43,974 nt of DNA, from NCBI GenBank assembly GCA_947463095.1, contig CANHRE010000012.1, forward strand, positions 1-43,974, in the 5' to 3' direction. Origin of the DNA: Flavobacteriales bacterium. GTDB lineage: Bacteria; Bacteroidota; Bacteroidia; NS11-12g; UBA955. Each line of letters opens with the position of its first letter. Positions within the stretch are counted from its first letter, which is position 1. The translations under genes were made by a program, and so were the position numbers. Below are positions 1,414-22,925 of the stretch, in pieces. The notes under the pieces are model-generated. The model saw only the letters and a list, made by a program, of their open reading frames with translations, was not told the DNA's origin and did not search any database.

Positions 1414-4017
1414 CTAATCAAGCATTTGCTTGATTTCATTTAGTTTAAAAAGTGCTTCCACAGGCGACAGTGAATTGATATCAATCAGTTCCAGTTTTTG
1501 ACGAATGCCTGCCAGTACCGGATCGCTGAGGCTGAACATTTGCAATTGGGCTGTTTCCCGGGGTTGAAGCTTGCGGGTAGTTTCCCTGCCTGTGGCGCTG
1601 CTGCGGTCCTCTTCCAGCCTAGCCAGGATTTCATCAGCCCGCTGTGTTACCACACTTGGGATACCGGCCATTCGGGCAACATGAATACCGAAGCTGTGTT
1701 CGCTGCCTCCGGGCTTCATTTTCCTGAGAAATACCACATGTTGTTCGTATTCCCTGATGCTGATGTGAAAGTTGTGAACGCCTTCCAGTTTGGCCTCCAG
1801 CTCGTTCAATTCGTGATAGTGCGTGGCAAACAGGGTTTTAGGTTTTTCAGCATGCGTGGCCAGGAATTCCGCAATGCTCCAGGCCAGTGAAATGCCGTCA
1901 TAGGTGCTTGTTCCGCGGCCAATTTCATCAAGTATGATTAAACTGCGGCTGCTAACGTTATTCAGGATGCTGGCTGTTTCAATCATTTCCACCATGAAGG
2001 TACTTTCCCCCAGGCTGATGTTATCGCTTGCCCCTACACGGGTATAAATCTTGTCAACAAGCCCAATTTGGGCACTGCTGCAAGGTACAAAACAGCCTAT
2101 TTGAGCAAGCAATACCGCCAAAGCGGTTTGACGCAATATGGCGCTTTTCCCGCTCATGTTGGGCCCGGTTAGGATGATCATGCGCTGCTGTTCGCTGTTT
2201 AGCTTTATGTCGTTGGGTATATAGTCAGTCCCCGGTGGAAGTTGACGCTCAATGACCGGATGCCGTAAATCTTTAATGTCCAAATCCAGGCCTTCCGTTA
2301 TAAGAGGTCGCACATAAGCATTCAACCTGCTTATTCCAGCAAAAGCCGCCAGGCAATCCAGCTTGGCCAAAACGCCCGCATTAACCTGCATCGGTGCCAC
2401 ATGTTCAGCCATGCGTTGCACAAACTCATTCCAATGGTGTTGCTCGAGTGCCGCAATGCGCTCTTCCGCATTCAGGATTTTCTCTTCATAGGTTTTAAGC
2501 TCTGGCGTGATGTAACGTTCGGCACCGGTTAGCGTTTGTTTCCGTACCCAGGAATCAGGAACTTTATCCTTATGGGCATTGGTAACTTCAATGTAGTAGC
2601 CAAAAACATTGTTGAAGGCTACCTTTAGTGAAGTGATACCGGTTTGTTCCGCTTCCCGCCGCTGCAAGTTGGCCAGATATTCCTTGCCGCTGCTGGCCAT
2701 ATTGCGCAGTTCATCCAGTTCAGGTAAGATCCCTTCTTTCAGGATTCCGCCTTTGGCCGCTATGGCCGGAGCATCTTCGCTGATGGACTTTTCAATCAGT
2801 TCACATACCGTGAGGCATGGATTGAGCTGATCGGCCAGTTGCCTGATGGACGCAGCCTCACTGTTGAGCAGCAGTTCACGCAACCGACCGGTATGGCGCA
2901 GGGACCTGGCCAATTGCACCATCTCTCTTGGGTTTACCCTAGCCAGTGCCACTTTTCCTGTAAGTCGTTGAACATCACCTATCTGCAGCAATTGTTCACC
3001 GGAAAGTTCAAGTTGTTCCGGATGGGCAAAAAACCATTCCACACATTCGTGGCGTTCGTTGATAGGTCCTGCTTCCTTCAATGGCAATACCAACCAGTGC
3101 CGAAGCAGCCGAGCACCCATGGGTGTACGGGTTTGGTCCAGTATTTCCAGCAGGCTCTTACCTCCCGGAAATAATGGCTGCAGCAGCTCCAGATTTCTGA
3201 TGGTGAAGCCGTCCAGCCATAAATACTTCTCCCTGTCTATTCGGCTGATGCCACTGATATGTCCGGGCTGATGATGCCTGGTTTGCTCCAGATAATGCAG
3301 GATGGCTCCTGCAGAAATGCAGGCCTGTTTCCATTCAGATATGCCAAATCCTTTCAGCGATGCCACTTGAAACTGGCGCAACAGCTTTTCCGTTCCGTAG
3401 GTCTCGGAATATACCCAATCATCTAATAACTGAGTAAACCATTTATCGCCAAATAACGATGTAAACTCTTTAATGCTGTTTCTGGATAGCAGTACTTCGC
3501 TTGGCTTAAAGCTGTGCAACAGTTTACCGGCATAATCACTGTCGCCCTGGGCAGTCAGAAACTCACCAGTGCTGATGTCCAGAAACGACAAACCGTGTTC
3601 CTGATCGTTGACCGACCACGAGGCCAGGTAGTTGCTGCTTTTTGATTCCAGCACTTTATCGTTCACGGATACCCCTGGCGTTACCAATTCGGTTACGCCT
3701 CTTTTCACGATAGTTTTCGTTTGCTTGGGATCCTCTAATTGATCACAAATGGCCACCCTGTGGCCTGCCCGAACCAGCTTAGGGAGATAATTATCCAGCG
3801 AATGGTAAGGGAAACCGGCAAGTTCCATTTCAGAAGCTGCGCCATTGGCCCTTTTGGTGAGCACAATGCCCAATACGTTGCTTGCAACACGCGCATCTTC
3901 GCCGAATGTTTCGTAAAAATCCCCAACCCTGAACAGCAACAGCGCACCCGGATATTCCGCCTTGATGCTGTTGTATTGTTTCATCAGCGGGGTTTCTTTG
4001 TCTGTTGCCTTGGCCAT
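1414..4017 (-). CDS. mutS: DNA mismatch repair protein MutS
   Basis: MutS recognises base mismatches and small loops and, with ATP, recruits MutL. The product has 867 residues, close to the 853 of E. coli MutS. The mismatch-binding F-x-E motif is in GDFYETF (F34, E36). The ATPase domain has the Walker A GPNMSGKS (618-625, K624) and the downstream STFMVEM and LDEIGRGTSTYDG motifs, followed by the FATHYHEL segment typical of the family. The start ATG at 4017 gives a normal N-terminus for MutS1. It is transcribed away from the trmH-like gene at 4121, with about 100 bases between the two starts. I see no clear terminator in the 160 bases between its stop and gyrA. Confidence 0.97.
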   Translation of the reverse strand: MAKATDKETPLMKQYNSIKAEYPGALLLFRVGDFYETFGEDARVASNVLGIVLTKRANGAASEMELAGFPYHSLDNYLPKLVRAGHRVAICDQLEDPKQTKTIVKRGVTELVTPGVSVNDKVLESKSSNYLASWSVNDQEHGLSFLDISTGEFLTAQGDSDYAGKLLHSFKPSEVLLSRNSIKEFTSLFGDKWFTQLLDDWVYSETYGTEKLLRQFQVASLKGFGISEWKQACISAGAILHYLEQTRHHQPGHISGISRIDREKYLWLDGFTIRNLELLQPLFPGGKSLLEILDQTRTPMGARLLRHWLVLPLKEAGPINERHECVEWFFAHPEQLELSGEQLLQIGDVQRLTGKVALARVNPREMVQLARSLRHTGRLRELLLNSEAASIRQLADQLNPCLTVCELIEKSISEDAPAIAAKGGILKEGILPELDELRNMASSGKEYLANLQRREAEQTGITSLKVAFNNVFGYYIEVTNAHKDKVPDSWVRKQTLTGAERYITPELKTYEEKILNAEERIAALEQHHWNEFVQRMAEHVAPMQVNAGVLAKLDCLAAFAGISRLNAYVRPLITEGLDLDIKDLRHPVIERQLPPGTDYIPNDIKLNSEQQRMIILTGPNMSGKSAILRQTALAVLLAQIGCFVPCSSAQIGLVDKIYTRVGASDNISLGESTFMVEMIETASILNNVSSRSLIILDEIGRGTSTYDGISLAWSIAEFLATHAEKPKTLFATHYHELNELEAKLEGVHNFHISIREYEQHVVFLRKMKPGGSEHSFGIHVARMAGIPSVVTQRADEILARLEEDRSSATGRETTRKLQPRETAQLQMFSLSDPVLAGIRQKLELIDINSLSPVEALFKLNEIKQMLD

Positions 4018-4111
4018 TTTCCCGCAATTTATACTTGTTCATTAGCCTTTAAATGAACATCTTTTCCCAAGGTTTATAAAGGTTGACCGGCTGCAGCTTT
4101 ACAGGAAATTG

Positions 4112-4119
4112 TAGATTTG
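4112..4119 (+). promoter_or_regulatory. -7 box TAGATTTG before the TrmH-like gene
   Basis: TAGATTTG matches the Bacteroidota -7 consensus TAnnTTTG exactly. It ends one base before the ATG at 4121, so a transcript from it would be leaderless or would begin between the two tandem ATGs (4121 and 4124). No TTG lies at the expected 19-21 base spacing, so only half of the promoter pattern is present. Confidence 0.4.
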
Positions 4120-4120
4120 C

Positions 4121-4654
4121 ATGATGCCTGACAAGCTTCATCTTACTGAATTGAATCGCCTGAGCATCAGCGATTTCAAGTTGGCCGCCAAGCGTTCGGT
4201 TGACCTCATTTTGCTGAATATTCGCAGTGCCGGAAATGTAGGATCCATGTTTCGCTCTGCAGATGCCTTTTGCATCAATAAAATCTGGCTTTGCGGAATT
4301 ACACCGCAACCTCCAGACAGGGAATTGAGTAAAACGGCCCTTGGCGCTGATCAGAGCATGAGTTGGGAATACCGAAGTGATGCCATTTCTTTGGTCCGCG
4401 AATTGAAACAGCAGGATTATCGAATCATTGCCGTGGAACATACCACGGCTTCAAGGCCGTTGAATGACCTCAGGCCCATCACACAACCCGTTGCCTTTGT
4501 TATGGGTAACGAAGTTTTTGGTGTTGATAATCCTGTATTGGAATGTTGTGATTCATGTGTTGAAATCCCTCAATTTGGCACCAAGCATTCCCTGAATGTT
4601 TCGGTTTGCGCAGGCATTGTTCTATGGCACTATACGCACCAAATACAGGGATAA
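4121..4654 (+). CDS. TrmH/SpoU-family RNA 2'-O-methyltransferase
   Basis: This is a SPOUT-fold methyltransferase that would transfer a methyl group from S-adenosylmethionine to a ribose 2'-OH in tRNA or rRNA. The 177-residue length fits the short, single-domain TrmH-like proteins without an RNA-binding extension. The three family motifs are visible: NIRSAGNVGSMFRSADAF (about 33-50), VMGNEVFGVD (about 126-135) and KHSLNVSVCAGIVLWH near the C-terminus, which forms the knotted SAM site. There are two tandem ATGs; the first is used here, but the promoter-like box ending at 4119 would favour the second (4124). Which nucleotide it modifies cannot be told from sequence. The next gene begins 39 bases downstream. 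Confidence 0.9.
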   Translation: MMPDKLHLTELNRLSISDFKLAAKRSVDLILLNIRSAGNVGSMFRSADAFCINKIWLCGITPQPPDRELSKTALGADQSMSWEYRSDAISLVRELKQQDYRIIAVEHTTASRPLNDLRPITQPVAFVMGNEVFGVDNPVLECCDSCVEIPQFGTKHSLNVSVCAGIVLWHYTHQIQG

Positions 4655-4693: not shown

Positions 4694-6736
4694 ATGAATC
4701 GCTTATTGCTTCTACTCCTGCCTTTGGCCTTTGCAGGTGCCCTGCAGTCCCAGAATACACCCGACGGACGAAGTGCGGTGCGTCTGGAACAGGATCGTAT
4801 TGATATGCTGGATGGCATGGCCGATTTGGAGTTGCATTTCCCCAACCCGTCGCTCACCCGCAGAGCAAAACACTTGTATTTTGAACTGATTGACCGCATC
4901 TCCGGGCATATTGAGTTGAATTATCCCTCAGAAACGGAATACTGGAATACGCTTGCTCAGGATCTGGCTGGCATCAATCGCACCAATATGCAATTTCTGA
5001 GCAGCTACGAACAATATTTTGATTTATTGGACCAGATCCTCAGCCATCCAGGTGATTCAAGGGAATTGGAACTGGTGCAAAACCGGGTACTGATTGGCCT
5101 GAAAATGATGCCTTACCTGCTGAAACGACCCTGGTGCAGGAGTTTTCTGAACTATGCTGCCGGAGTTTTCCCTTATGAAGTGCTCAGGGTATATCAAGAC
5201 TTCAGCAATGAAGGCTATGCATTAGAAATCCTGGAACAAGTGGCCATCCATGATCCAAATGCCATGAAGCAATATCTCGGAACTTACCATCCCGTGAACA
5301 TGCTGATCCAAACAAGCAATGATCCAGTGGTACAAACCCTTATCGACATTCATATAAGTCAAGGCTCAAGGGCACGCAGCTATACACTGATAGACTGGAT
5401 TTACAAGGGAAAATTTACACTAGAAGCGGCTGAAGCCTTGTGCAATAATGAAGATGCCTATTTCGGGAAATTGGTTGAATTGCGAAAAAGCAAGCAAATT
5501 CTCGGGGCCTATTCGGTTGATCAGGAATTGGGAGCCATAGCCCTGGATAAAATAAGGCACATGAATCTGTTGCACGACGAATCTGATGAAGTTCGCTTTG
5601 CTTCCGTGCGCTACAACAGTGCAGAAGAACTCTATTCCCTGATGGTTTATGGTCAGGAAGAAATTTTCACTTCCACGTTCAACGGATTGTTTAAGCGATT
5701 TATGGCGCGAAGGCCTGATTCCTCAGGATTTGGCTTTCTGAAACGCATGGGCATGAACAAGTTCAGAACCTTCGTGAAAATGTGCGCCGGTTACAATACC
5801 CTGCAAAGTTTCCTGAATACCATGGAGCCCTTTGAGCGTGTGGTGCTGATGGACGAAGTAGTGAAGGGCATTGACCGCACCGGAGGCAATCTAGCTCCCG
5901 CTGTTGAAGTTGCCGATATTTTCGGCAGCATTACAGACCCTCAACTGAAAGAGAAGTTTATTCAGCGATTGGAAAAGGAATTGTCGAATAACATCGCCCA
6001 GGGCCATGATTACGGCATCAGGCTGTTTGGATTCCTTTATAAATTGGCCGGAAAAGATCCTCAAGCATTAACCGGGCCCGCTTATCGCTTCGATATTCCC
6101 GACCTGGCTGGCATTGAAAGTCAACTGCTATTTCCAGGTGGGAAACATGTACAACTTCATGTGTTCTATAATGATGATGATGGAGAGTCCTCCTATAATT
6201 CATTCGTTCAAACGTTTTATAACGATAAAATAAACTGGCAGGTAACGCCTTCCGGGATGTACACCTTGATCAGTGCAAAGACCGGACAAAAGGTGGTGAT
6301 TTACGCCAATAAGCCAGAATTTCACGATGAAGCCATACCCCAGCTGCAAGAATTATTTGAGAAAGACAAACACGAGCCTGATTTAGTCGTTCATCGCGGA
6401 CACAGCTACCACTTAAGCGGAACCATTGCGCTGCTGGGAAGCAACACCCGGGTTGCCATCCTGGGAAGCTGTGGAGGTTATCAGAACATCAGCCGGGTGC
6501 TTGACCAAGCCGCTGAGGCACAGATTGTTTCCTCCAAGCAAATAGGAACCTTTACGGTAAATAATGTGCTGCTAAAAGATTTGAGCGATATGCTGCGCGA
6601 AGGAAAAAACCTGAACTGGCAGGAACTCTGGGCGCAACTTGACCGCAAACTCGCCAGCAACAATCGCTGGGCAGATTATATCCCGCCTTATAAGAACCTT
6701 GGCATGAGGTTTATCAAAGCATTCCAGCAAATATGA
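4694..6736 (+). CDS. secreted protein with C-terminal caspase-like (clan CD) signature
   Basis: I do not recognise the whole protein as a named family. It has 680 residues and begins with a signal peptide (MNRLLLLLLPLAFAGALQSQ). Residues about 25-460 look alpha-helical and repetitive in character, with no catalytic motif that I know. From about residue 475 the character changes to alternating beta and alpha, with DLVVHRGHSYH (H567, H570) followed by RVAILGSCGGY (C593). A hydrophobic strand ending in His, then a second strand ending in S-C-G-G, is the arrangement of clan CD cysteine peptidases (caspase, gingipain, separase, CHAT). The His-Cys spacing of 23-26 residues is short but similar to separase. 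Peptidase activity is an inference. Its stop overlaps the start of the next gene by ATGA (6733-6736), so the two are translationally coupled. Confidence 0.75.
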   Translation: MNRLLLLLLPLAFAGALQSQNTPDGRSAVRLEQDRIDMLDGMADLELHFPNPSLTRRAKHLYFELIDRISGHIELNYPSETEYWNTLAQDLAGINRTNMQFLSSYEQYFDLLDQILSHPGDSRELELVQNRVLIGLKMMPYLLKRPWCRSFLNYAAGVFPYEVLRVYQDFSNEGYALEILEQVAIHDPNAMKQYLGTYHPVNMLIQTSNDPVVQTLIDIHISQGSRARSYTLIDWIYKGKFTLEAAEALCNNEDAYFGKLVELRKSKQILGAYSVDQELGAIALDKIRHMNLLHDESDEVRFASVRYNSAEELYSLMVYGQEEIFTSTFNGLFKRFMARRPDSSGFGFLKRMGMNKFRTFVKMCAGYNTLQSFLNTMEPFERVVLMDEVVKGIDRTGGNLAPAVEVADIFGSITDPQLKEKFIQRLEKELSNNIAQGHDYGIRLFGFLYKLAGKDPQALTGPAYRFDIPDLAGIESQLLFPGGKHVQLHVFYNDDDGESSYNSFVQTFYNDKINWQVTPSGMYTLISAKTGQKVVIYANKPEFHDEAIPQLQELFEKDKHEPDLVVHRGHSYHLSGTIALLGSNTRVAILGSCGGYQNISRVLDQAAEAQIVSSKQIGTFTVNNVLLKDLSDMLREGKNLNWQELWAQLDRKLASNNRWADYIPPYKNLGMRFIKAFQQI

Positions 6737-7320
6737 TTGCAGCCGGAAAATGGTTGTGTTATCTGTTCACTATGGCATTGCTGTTTAGTGCAGGAATGTT
6801 GATACAGCGTCGCACTCAGCCACCCGCAAAGGTTTTGGTTTTTGATTCATTTGTCAGTCGCCAACAATCCAACATGCCCAGCCTGCTGCTCTGGGTGAAT
6901 GGCACTTGTCCGTTAAGCAGACAGTATGTGCCGCATTTAAAACACATCATTCAGCAAGCAAGTCTTTGGAACTGGAATACAGTGCTGGTTTCTGTTCAGG
7001 ATAGTGTTTGTGATCCCCTGTTCAGGCAGCTTGGAGTTTCATGGCATGTTCAGGATACCCAGGCCCTTTTGGCAAATTGGTTTAATGTATCCGTCATTCC
7101 AACGGCAATGCTCTTCAGGTCTTTCCCCGATACGAAAAATGTTGCAGCAGGACTGGTTTATCAGGGTGCTATTGACAACTGGGCTTCGGAAACCGGAAAG
7201 CATCGCCAAAACATAGACGAACATTTTCTGCAGGACGCCATGGAGGATCTGCATTCCGGGCACTCCATCCGGAACAGAAATACAAAACCTTTTGGATGTT
7301 TCATCGAATATAACCAATGA
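6733..7320 (+). CDS. membrane-anchored thioredoxin-fold (redoxin-like) protein
   Basis: The 195-residue product has an N-terminal hydrophobic segment (about 8-24) that would anchor or export it, followed by a thioredoxin-like domain. The strand LLLWVNG leads into TCPLSRQYVPHL, placing C59 at the active-site position with a C-x-x-S arrangement. A VIP segment around residue 120 fits the cis-proline loop. Two more cysteines, C93 and C189 (in PFGCFIEY near the C-terminus), could act as resolving partners. The single active-site Cys suggests a peroxiredoxin-like or disulfide-handling role, not a CXXC oxidoreductase. It overlaps both neighbours by ATGA, so it is likely made in step with the protease-like protein and the heme/copper lipoprotein. 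A comparable domain is, to my recollection, fused to the copper monooxygenase in some other bacteria. Confidence 0.8.
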   Translation: MIAAGKWLCYLFTMALLFSAGMLIQRRTQPPAKVLVFDSFVSRQQSNMPSLLLWVNGTCPLSRQYVPHLKHIIQQASLWNWNTVLVSVQDSVCDPLFRQLGVSWHVQDTQALLANWFNVSVIPTAMLFRSFPDTKNVAAGLVYQGAIDNWASETGKHRQNIDEHFLQDAMEDLHSGHSIRNRNTKPFGCFIEYNQ

Positions 7321-8708
7321 AATTTACGCACAAAAGAATAGATATCTTTACGATAAGTGCTGCACTTCTACTGGCAGCCTGCAATGGAAGTTTCACGGAT
7401 CACAATGCCGTCACCCATCCTACCTATCACAGGGATGTGGCACCCATACTCAGCATGAATTGCGTTCCCTGCCATCGTCCCGGCGGCGGCGGCCCCTTTC
7501 CTCTGGAACAATATCAGCAGGTAAGACAGAAGGCGCGCACCATAGCACGGGTTGTCGCTTCAGGATTCATGCCTCCCTGGCCTGCAGATCCAGGCTATCA
7601 GCACTTTCTGGGTGAACGGGTGCTAAATGACACCCAAAAACGCATTATTGCCAACTGGGTACAACAAGGTTGTCCGGAAGGCGCACGCTCCGCTAATTCC
7701 ATTAAAAAATCAGGCTTCCTGAACTACCAATCGGCCATAGGGAAACCGGATCTGGTGCTGGAATTAACACCTGTAAGCCTGAAGGGCGACCGAAGCGATC
7801 GGTTCTTCCTCTCCAAGGTATGCGGCAGCTTGCCGAAGGATACCTGGGTTCGGGCTATTGAATTTGTGCCTGGAATTCCTGGACTGGTGCACCATTTCAA
7901 CGGACACATCATCAATTATACGCAGGCACGTAAGAACCATGAAAGTGGGCTGCGGGTGAAAGAAGTAGTTGCAGGAACATATGATGCAGTTTTCCCCGAG
8001 TTGGAATTATTCAACGATGACGGAAGCATTCCGGAACGGATCCACAGCGCAGTAAATTACTTACCGGGGATGAGCGCAAGGCTTTTGCCTGAGGGCCTGG
8101 GAACGGTGCGGCTGAACAATCGGTTTGCCATTGTTGGCAATGATTTGCATTATGGTCCGGCTGAGCGAGATACGCTGGACAAGAGCCGCATCAACCTGTT
8201 TTTCAGCAAGGTGCCGCCCAGTAGGGCTGTTCATGAACTTATGCTGGGTACCAATGGCGTGTCCAAACCCAATCCCCCCTTATTTGTGCCCGCCGGGCGA
8301 AATTCTCGCCATTTCTGCCGGTTCCGGGTCAACCAGGATATCAGCTTGATTTCTGTAAATCCGCACATGCACCTGCTTGGAAAAAGCATCAGGGTATATG
8401 CCTTAAAACCCAACGGCGATACGGTGCGCATCATCAGCATTCCTCAATGGGATTTCCGCTGGCAATACCTATACACTTTTACGCATTTGATGCGCATACC
8501 TGCGGGAAGTGAACTGGTAGTGGACGCAGTTTTCGACAATACAGCAAACAATCCCAACAACCCTAATAAGCCCCCTAAAGACATCGCAGAGCGCCTTGAA
8601 TTTGGCGGAGCAAGCATGCGCGCCAGTGATGAGATGCTTCAATGCATCATCAATTGGACTCCTTACCGCAAAGGCGACGAGCACCTCAGTCTGAAATCCG
8701 GGCTGTGA
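7317..8708 (+). CDS. lipoprotein with c-type heme motif and copper type II monooxygenase domain
   Basis: This 463-residue lipoprotein (lipobox LLAAC, C22) carries a heme-c attachment motif, C49-V-P-C52-H53, within a cytochrome-c-like segment (about 35-125). The rest resembles the copper type II, ascorbate-dependent monooxygenases (peptidylglycine hydroxylating monooxygenase, dopamine beta-hydroxylase). The copper ligands of that family can be matched one by one: the His pair H192-H193 and the HYG histidine H278 for the first copper, and the H-x-H pair H350/H352 with M440 in SDEM for the second copper. The family hydroxylates C-H bonds using O2 and external electrons. The heme in the same chain suggests a built-in electron path (inference). 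The substrate is unknown. It is the last gene of an ATGA-coupled trio, and the rplS terminator lies just beyond. Confidence 0.85.
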   Translation: MKFTHKRIDIFTISAALLLAACNGSFTDHNAVTHPTYHRDVAPILSMNCVPCHRPGGGGPFPLEQYQQVRQKARTIARVVASGFMPPWPADPGYQHFLGERVLNDTQKRIIANWVQQGCPEGARSANSIKKSGFLNYQSAIGKPDLVLELTPVSLKGDRSDRFFLSKVCGSLPKDTWVRAIEFVPGIPGLVHHFNGHIINYTQARKNHESGLRVKEVVAGTYDAVFPELELFNDDGSIPERIHSAVNYLPGMSARLLPEGLGTVRLNNRFAIVGNDLHYGPAERDTLDKSRINLFFSKVPPSRAVHELMLGTNGVSKPNPPLFVPAGRNSRHFCRFRVNQDISLISVNPHMHLLGKSIRVYALKPNGDTVRIISIPQWDFRWQYLYTFTHLMRIPAGSELVVDAVFDNTANNPNNPNKPPKDIAERLEFGGASMRASDEMLQCIINWTPYRKGDEHLSLKSGL

Positions 8709-19983: not shown

Positions 19984-21325
19984 ATTGTTCGGCCGGTATT
20001 CCGCGTAGTTGACAAAAAATAGCAACGGCAGCACTGTGGCTTACCACTTTGTCTTTGAAGTATTCAACGATGGTTTTCTTTTCGTCTTCGGTAGCCTCCA
20101 GTTGGTTCAGGATGTTCAGGAGGTGCATTTTCATATGTCCCTTTTGAATGCCTGTGGTGATGAGCGAACGTATGGCCGAGAAGTTCTGCGCCAAGCCGGC
20201 AGCAGCGGTGATCATCATCAATTCAGCCGCGTTCGGATTACCCAACATTGCATGGGCAAATTTCACCATGGGATGCAGCCTGGTAATACCGCCAACCGTG
20301 CCCAGTGACATAGGAACTTCTATCCAGAACTTAAATACATCGTTTTCTACCGATGCATGTGTGAGGCTGGTGTACTGACCGCTGCGGGATGCATAGGCGT
20401 GCGCACAAGCTTCCACGGCCCTGAAATCATTACCGGTAGCCAAAACCACGGCGTCGATACCATTCATAATTCCCTTGTTATGGGTAACGGCCCTGTAGGG
20501 TTCGATTTCCGCTATTCGCACCGCACGGCAAAACTTTTCTGCAAATTCCTGGTTGCTGATACCGCTGCCCTCTTCAATGGCCGAAACCGGACAGGAAACC
20601 TCTGCCCTGACAAGACATTCCGGGGTGTAGTTACTTAAAATACACATCACCACCTGGATGCTTCGGTCTTCCATTGGAAGTGCTACTTCCTCCATTAGGG
20701 CATTCTGAAAAATTCCTGCACATTCCTCCAGGCAGGAGTTGATGAAGTTCGCCCCCATGCTGTCACAGGTTTCAAAGCGAAGCTCCAGCTGGTAATAGCC
20801 CGGTTCTACCTGTGTTTTATCAACCAGCGCCACATCTTTAATTCCGCCTCCGCGCGTCCGCATGTTGGCCGTGATGTGGTTGGTACCCGAGAGGAAATTC
20901 GTTTTTATCCGATGGAAGAAATCTGTAAATGACTGCTTATCGGTTCCATTCCAGATAAAATGTACATGACCGATTTTGGTACTTTGCAGCACTTCGGCCT
21001 TGAACCCTCCACGTTCTATCCAGAAGTTTGCCGCTTTGGAAGCCGCAGCAACTACTGAACTTTCTTCAATGGCCATGGGAAGGGCATACATACGGCCATT
21101 CACTTGGAAATTGGGAGCTACGCCAAAGGGCAGATAGAAATTGGTAAGTGCATTCTCAATAAACTCATCATGAATTTTTTGCAAATCTGGATTGATATGC
21201 CAGTATTCTTCGATGGTTCTGAGGGCGCTTTGGGGCTCTGCGCTGTAGTGGGCAATCAACCACTCTATTTTGGCTTGTTTTGACCACTTGCTGAAGCCTT
21301 TAACCGGCGCTGTTTGTTTGTTCAT
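19964..21325 (-). CDS. mvaA: hydroxymethylglutaryl-CoA reductase, class II (degradative type)
   Basis: It reduces HMG-CoA to mevalonate with four electrons from NAD(P)H. The 453-residue protein matches the class II (bacterial) form, with no membrane domain. The catalytic glutamate lies in PMAIEESSVVAAASKAA (E87/E88), the lysine in THNKGIMNGIDAV, the aspartate in ATGNDFRAVEA and the C-terminal histidine in QKGHMKMHL. MSLGTVGGITRLHP is also characteristic. Although called degradative after Pseudomonas mevalonii, here it lies within a biosynthetic operon and should act in the synthesis direction. Its start overlaps the fni stop by ATGA (21322-21325). Confidence 0.95.
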   Translation of the reverse strand: MNKQTAPVKGFSKWSKQAKIEWLIAHYSAEPQSALRTIEEYWHINPDLQKIHDEFIENALTNFYLPFGVAPNFQVNGRMYALPMAIEESSVVAAASKAANFWIERGGFKAEVLQSTKIGHVHFIWNGTDKQSFTDFFHRIKTNFLSGTNHITANMRTRGGGIKDVALVDKTQVEPGYYQLELRFETCDSMGANFINSCLEECAGIFQNALMEEVALPMEDRSIQVVMCILSNYTPECLVRAEVSCPVSAIEEGSGISNQEFAEKFCRAVRIAEIEPYRAVTHNKGIMNGIDAVVLATGNDFRAVEACAHAYASRSGQYTSLTHASVENDVFKFWIEVPMSLGTVGGITRLHPMVKFAHAMLGNPNAAELMMITAAAGLAQNFSAIRSLITTGIQKGHMKMHLLNILNQLEATEDEKKTIVEYFKDKVVSHSAAVAIFCQLRGIPAEQFAKQQR

Positions 21326-22442: not shown

Positions 22443-22925
22443 ATGAAAAAGTTTCTTTATTTCACTGCGGCCATAGGCATTTTTTCCTGGTACGGATGCC
22501 AGAATCATGGCGTTCCGGCCAACCCGAACAGCACGCACTTTGGCAGCGAATTTTCAGATTCAACCGGCTTTTCTGCCGCTGATGCCCTTAGCCGCGTTGA
22601 TTCTTTGAAAGGAGATGTAACAATTTCCGGCAAGGTATCCAACGTATGTCAGACTGAAGGATGTTGGTTCAATTTAAGCCTTGACAGCAATCGCCTGCTG
22701 TTTGTTGATTTCAACCATCAATTCACCGTACCCAGGAATATTGCGGGTAAAGATGTTCTGGTGCACGGCCGATTTTATCAGGATACCCTTTCTGTAGAAC
22801 AACAGAAACACCTTGCTGCAGATGCAGGAAAATCAAAAGCAGAAACAGATCTGATTCAAACGCCTAAGGTAGAATTAAATTTTCGTGCCTTTGGGGTGAA
22901 AATGATCAGCAAAACGCAACCATGA
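22443..22925 (+). CDS. DUF4920 lipoprotein
   Basis: The 160-residue protein has a lipoprotein-type signal peptide ending at C19 (SWYGC). The body (about 45-155) resembles DUF4920: a small beta-rich domain with VTISGKVSNVCQTEGCWFNL, DVLVHGRFYQDTLS and a closing KVELNFRAFGV. The paired Cys around CQTEGCW are a typical feature of that domain. The function is unknown; a metal- or ligand-binding OB-like fold is sometimes suggested. Its stop overlaps the rnhA start by ATGA (22922-22925), though no functional link to RNase H is obvious. Confidence 0.82.
   Translation: MKKFLYFTAAIGIFSWYGCQNHGVPANPNSTHFGSEFSDSTGFSAADALSRVDSLKGDVTISGKVSNVCQTEGCWFNLSLDSNRLLFVDFNHQFTVPRNIAGKDVLVHGRFYQDTLSVEQQKHLAADAGKSKAETDLIQTPKVELNFRAFGVKMISKTQP

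Follow-up and report, generated by a model that had tools for sequence, protein, structure and literature searches.

In the 43,974-nucleotide stretch of Flavobacteriales DNA analyzed here (the window; contig CANHRE010000012.1 of assembly GCA_947463095.1, a 2.6-Mb draft genome referred to as G000), four consecutive genes on the plus strand probably represent two independent units placed end to end. The first is a SpoU/TrmH-type RNA methyltransferase gene (4121..4654; Pfam SpoU_methylase, E 9e-31) followed by the gene for protein A (4694..6736, 680 aa), of which SpoU is the usual predecessor. The second consists of the genes for protein B, a membrane-anchored or exported redoxin-like protein (6733..7320, 195 aa), and protein C, a probable lipoprotein with an N-terminal heme c and a dicopper monooxygenase part of the PHM/DBH type (7317..8708, 463 aa). 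This explanation draws on observed gene order statistics, a single origin of the A-B-C arrangement, invariant residues, homology of C to PHM and a B-C fusion, to which it adds proposed catalytic steps and presumed translational coupling. The lasting interest of the locus lies in A. Judged from its sequence, A represents a so far undescribed family of exported proteins in which a His-Cys pair never varies.

The positions of the three genes, and the ATGA overlaps at 6733-6736 and 7317-7320 from which the earlier note had argued for translational coupling, match exactly the ORFs read in the sequence. Such overlaps are common in the window, where one further gene pair on each strand shares 4 nt (21322-21325, minus; 22922-22925, plus), so that the overlaps of A-B-C are not unusual here and carry little weight alone; they would reflect tight packing of co-directional genes rather than shared function. 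Export of all three proteins, also proposed earlier, is likely from their sequence features, i.e. a Sec-type signal sequence at the N-terminus of A, a single hydrophobic N-terminal segment in B, and a lipobox (LAAC, Cys22) in C, where the LPAM_1 match is weak (18.1 bits, cut-off 20).

The predicted architecture of A comprises the signal sequence, an alpha-solenoid at about residues 25-460 and a C-terminal alpha/beta domain at about 463-680, as seen in an AlphaFold2 model of the full protein built from 79 sequences (pLDDT 90) and in a model of the C-terminal domain alone (pLDDT 94.7). Two motifs stand out in this domain. A strand at 564-568 leads into HRGHS (6392..6406), with H567 and H570, and the next strand, 587-589, leads into GSCGG (6464..6478), with C593 as the predicted nucleophile at its end; a helix follows each motif, so that both models share the order strand-His-helix-strand-Cys-helix. 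Among 62 sequences, tandem paralogues included, H567 and C593 are found in all, whereas H570 has one exception (61/62), which makes H567 the likelier catalytic histidine on conservation. The same 62 sequences are without variation at D494, D496, G497, R568, G569, S571, G591, S592, G594, G618, N623, W642, W646, Y662, P665 and N668, while some members of family f13 deviate around C593, with GSCGA or GGCGG. By the proposed mechanism, the alpha-solenoid would most likely hold a substrate in place for an active site of the Cys-His type in the C-terminal domain, with C593 as nucleophile and H567 or H570 as general base, and the exported protein, acting in the periplasm, would most likely cleave peptide or amide bonds. 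The family yields a clean prediction, namely that C593 and H567 are essential.

The earlier note had called A caspase-like and clan CD-like. The invariant His and Cys and the order of the structural elements agree with that clan, but family and fold searches gave no confirmation. A had no match in Pfam, NCBIfam, PADLOC or the PDB, even when 22 relatives were used in the search. Foldseek comparisons of the full-length model and of the domain with the PDB returned nothing at E <= 1e-3, only generic alpha/beta matches, among which caspase-6 came at rank 45 (E 0.023, TM 0.37) and small GTPases and EF-Tu scored similarly; against viral models the domain likewise found only generic alpha/beta folds, the best of them unnamed or GTPase-like. 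Profile alignment (hhalign) of A to sets of C14 and C25 peptidases gave scores equal to those of the negative controls, in a comparison where the positive control, C14 against C25, failed as well. Like the clan CD peptidases, i.e. C14 metacaspases and caspases, C25 gingipains and C11 clostripain, A as modelled has a His after one strand, a Cys after the next and a helix after each, and that clan too has exported members with large extra domains. Unlike them, A is fused to an alpha-solenoid, has its His and Cys only 23-26 residues apart and carries HRGHS where they have the HG or GHG motif, and neither sequence nor fold searches link the two. Since these searches lend no confirmation, we regard A as a probable Cys-His hydrolase of an unplaced family, and its membership in clan CD as a good guess. 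There is about an even chance that A is the first member of a new, remotely caspase-like family of cysteine hydrolases that bacteria export and that have an alpha-solenoid substrate holder of their own; hundreds of Bacteroidota genomes would contain this family, with tandem duplicates in lineages of the Chitinophagales type.

Two other readings of A are each rather unlikely. According to the first, A is a cysteine enzyme of another alpha/beta fold, not caspase-like but e.g. similar to glutamine amidotransferases, with GSCGGY as the nucleophile elbow. Weak matches to GATase_3 and cobyric acid synthase in 5-6 of the 22 relatives (best E 0.007-0.009), which reflect a GxCGGY-like nucleophile motif, fit this proposal, as does the generic alpha/beta character of the Foldseek matches. 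In class I amidotransferases, the His and Glu of the triad lie downstream of the Cys. A has no such residues and no conserved His past C593; its invariant His lies 23-26 residues upstream instead, which argues against this assignment. The second reading, equally doubtful, makes A a non-catalytic exported binding protein whose HRGHS and GSCGG motifs bind a metal or hold the structure together. It is in keeping with the lack of any known activity and with the many Gly, Ser, Trp and Pro residues that are likewise invariant in the motifs, but a His and a Cys that end one strand and the next and never vary, in paralogues that are about 35% identical, are typical of active sites. A role in anti-phage defence was discarded, there being no PADLOC match, and so was a viral origin, as no relative occurs in viral contigs.

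Relatives of A were detected in 64 of 117 near-kin genomes and at 547 places in a set with one genome per species. Gene neighbors were counted for the best 80 of these 547 relatives, all of them named and nearly all labelled Bacteroidota. The usual neighbor of A is either SpoU or a tandem paralogue: 42 of the 80 loci have a SpoU gene next to A, in 41 cases upstream and on the same strand, and a tandem paralogue lies directly upstream in 26 loci of the Chitinophagales type (L129-L175). These paralogues, of about 1000 aa, abut A and are recognized by its profile at E 2e-140; those examined carry the same HRGHS (HRGHSxH) and GSCGG motifs, and one tested copy had no Pfam match. A phylum-wide sample of 393 genomes contained A in 15, of which 14 belong to family f13. 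There (L198-L213), A is mostly located between a divergent two-component pair (response regulator and histidine kinase) and an ABC transporter, with no B nearby in any of the 16 loci. The SpoU gene of the window itself forms a divergent pair with mutS (1414-4654), and mutS is found near A in 32 of the best 80 loci.

The earlier identifications of B as redoxin-like and of C as a heme c joined to a PHM-type copper domain both hold. For B, the thioredoxin-type Pfam matches are weak and below cut-off, while the corresponding part of a B-C fusion protein matches Redoxin above cut-off and scores as Redoxin/AhpC-TSA. Like redoxins and thioredoxin-like proteins of the ResA, Sco and AhpC types, B has a CP(x)(C/S) motif and a conserved proline, Pro123. 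Unlike them, the B of the window has CPLS in place of CxxC, where many relatives have CPxC, and a second invariant cysteine in a C-terminal GC(F/Y)IE tail. The two cysteines are Cys59 in CPLS (6907..6909; 97% of 40 rows and 22/22) and Cys189 in the tail (7297..7299; 40/40 rows). The second cysteine of CxxC is missing in several copies of B, which suggests a pairing of Cys59 with Cys189, or a metal site, rather than a plain disulfide reductase.

The copper domain of C in the window falls below the Pfam cut-off (21.2 against 23 bits), but Cu2_monoox_C was matched in all 23 relatives of C at E <= 0.1 (best 1.2e-7), and a profile of these 23 relatives found PHM structures at E 3e-4. In the alignment to PHM, the motifs HH, HYG, HxH-LGK and DEM match, which accounts for all six copper ligands, and each of these is invariant. 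The CuH ligands are H192 and H193 (7890..7895; HH in PHM) and H278 (8148..8150; LHYGP, HYG in PHM), and the CuM ligands H350 and H352 (8364..8372; HMH, HTH in PHM) and M440 (8634..8636; SDEM in both). DBH has the same ligand set, i.e. His262, His263, His333, His412, His414 and Met487 (PMC4846438). C thus resembles the PHM/DBH dicopper monooxygenases (Pfam Cu2_monooxygen and Cu2_monoox_C) in its six ligands, their order and their local motifs, and differs from them in having an N-terminal heme c and lipobox in place of DOMON or PAL domains. The heme c site, CVPCH (7461..7475), is invariant in 23 of 23 relatives, as is Met85, the likely second heme ligand.

A further difference concerns the substrate. 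PHM has three residues, Arg240, Asn316 and Tyr318, which we take to bind the carboxylate of the peptide. These align to Asn348, Gln442 and Ile444 of C and are thus not kept, so that a peptidylglycine substrate is unlikely; the peptide oxidation suggested earlier finds no footing here, and peptide amidation by C was rejected on the same grounds. As for the chemistry, the heme c of lipoprotein C would most likely feed electrons to CuH, taking the place of ascorbate as the immediate donor, and CuM would activate O2 for hydroxylation of a substrate. B would be the thiol-redox partner of C and would either maintain its reduced state or assist in the loading of copper or heme.

That B and C belong together is supported by many genomes in which the two genes are adjacent with no A nearby, and by a case in which they are fused; the B-C unit is a real conserved pair, independent of A. 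B lies directly upstream of C in genera g2, g3, g5 and g13 of family f1, in members of family f2 and in families f12, f13 and f34, with overlaps that reach 59 nt in some genomes, while in genera g15 and g16 of f2 it lies 1-2 kb upstream. The fusion of redoxin and heme/copper domains that the earlier note had mentioned does exist: one ORF (L325:756-2555, genome G234) encodes 599 aa with a B part (11-199), heme c and copper domains in this order. A redoxin is thus the consistent partner of this bacterial enzyme of the PHM type with a built-in heme c, in some cases as part of one fused protein, which suggests where its electrons or its copper come from. Our search of the literature on bacterial redoxin-heme-copper monooxygenases found nothing relevant.

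Some copies of C occur without B alongside, namely some from the phylum-wide sample and a set of longer paralogues of about 520 aa with 31-35% identity. The genome of the window has one of the latter, a second C of 525 aa with no B, at G000:C5:56229-57437 (L230). Two conserved proteins were also observed behind C. One, of 212-231 aa and exported-looking (L215, L216, L220, L229 and L231; a 4-nt overlap in three of these), contains a LECSG or LECGG stretch, and the other, of 372-381 aa, directly follows C in genera g3 and g5 (L219, L226, L227 and L228); the tested copy of each was without a Pfam match.

With these units in hand, it is very improbable that A, B and C work as a trio, made in fixed ratio, in which the redoxin and the copper monooxygenase oxidize a peptide after A has cut or bound it. 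This was the reading of the earlier note, and apart from the two overlaps and the shared direction in the window it has in its favor that genera g1, g7 and g12 retain A, B and C in this order, with A identity down to 46%. Homologues of A are, however, mostly without B and C: among the best 80 relatives, B lies directly behind A in eight and C within 700 nt behind A in six, with one more (G009) in which C is 3.9 kb distant. In six of the eight relatives with B, the A-B overlap is gone and replaced by gaps of 1-36 nt. Each unit also occurs without the other in near-complete genomes. A is present with no match to C in G010, G020, G071 and G073, all 99-100% complete, and in more than ten genomes (e.g. 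G011, G017, G029, G036 and G040), including many of genera g3, g4, g5 and g10, SpoU, B and C are contiguous while A is absent genome-wide. Where both units are found in one genome, they are often far apart, i.e. 187 kb in G012, 330 kb in G123 and 674 kb in G074. Neighbor counts, presence and absence, and the tree of A, together with the absence from C of the residues for the peptide carboxylate, thus contradict a functional trio. It would have prompted a search for a joint peptide-oxidation pathway, which the comparative data speak against; what remains is a family of exported proteins, so far undescribed, that has an unvarying His-Cys site and 547 detectable relatives, counted in one genome per species.

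The tree of A, built from 79 proteins, places the A of the window, the eight A proteins with B behind them and one whose contig ends just past A in a single clade of ten sequences (support 98), i.e. one branch and one change. Since all A genes with B behind them fall in this clade, the A-B-C arrangement arose once. In terms of the two units, the simplest history would be that SpoU-A came first, that B-C was inserted into the SpoU locus downstream of A on one occasion, in the ancestor of this small Bacteroidota clade, and that A was later lost in some genera, with the insertion and loss steps in their presumed direction. A is likely to be co-transcribed with B-C in the clade of the window, and there may thus be some lineage-specific cooperation between them in this one clade.

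Two minor observations concern the surroundings of these genes. In one locus (L087, genome G056), a 362-aa frame has a SpoU start that runs into B, which is either a fusion or an assembly error. In the window itself, the segment 10425-12009 holds a gene for an ECF sigma factor and, behind it, two small genes that may be the regulator module of this factor.
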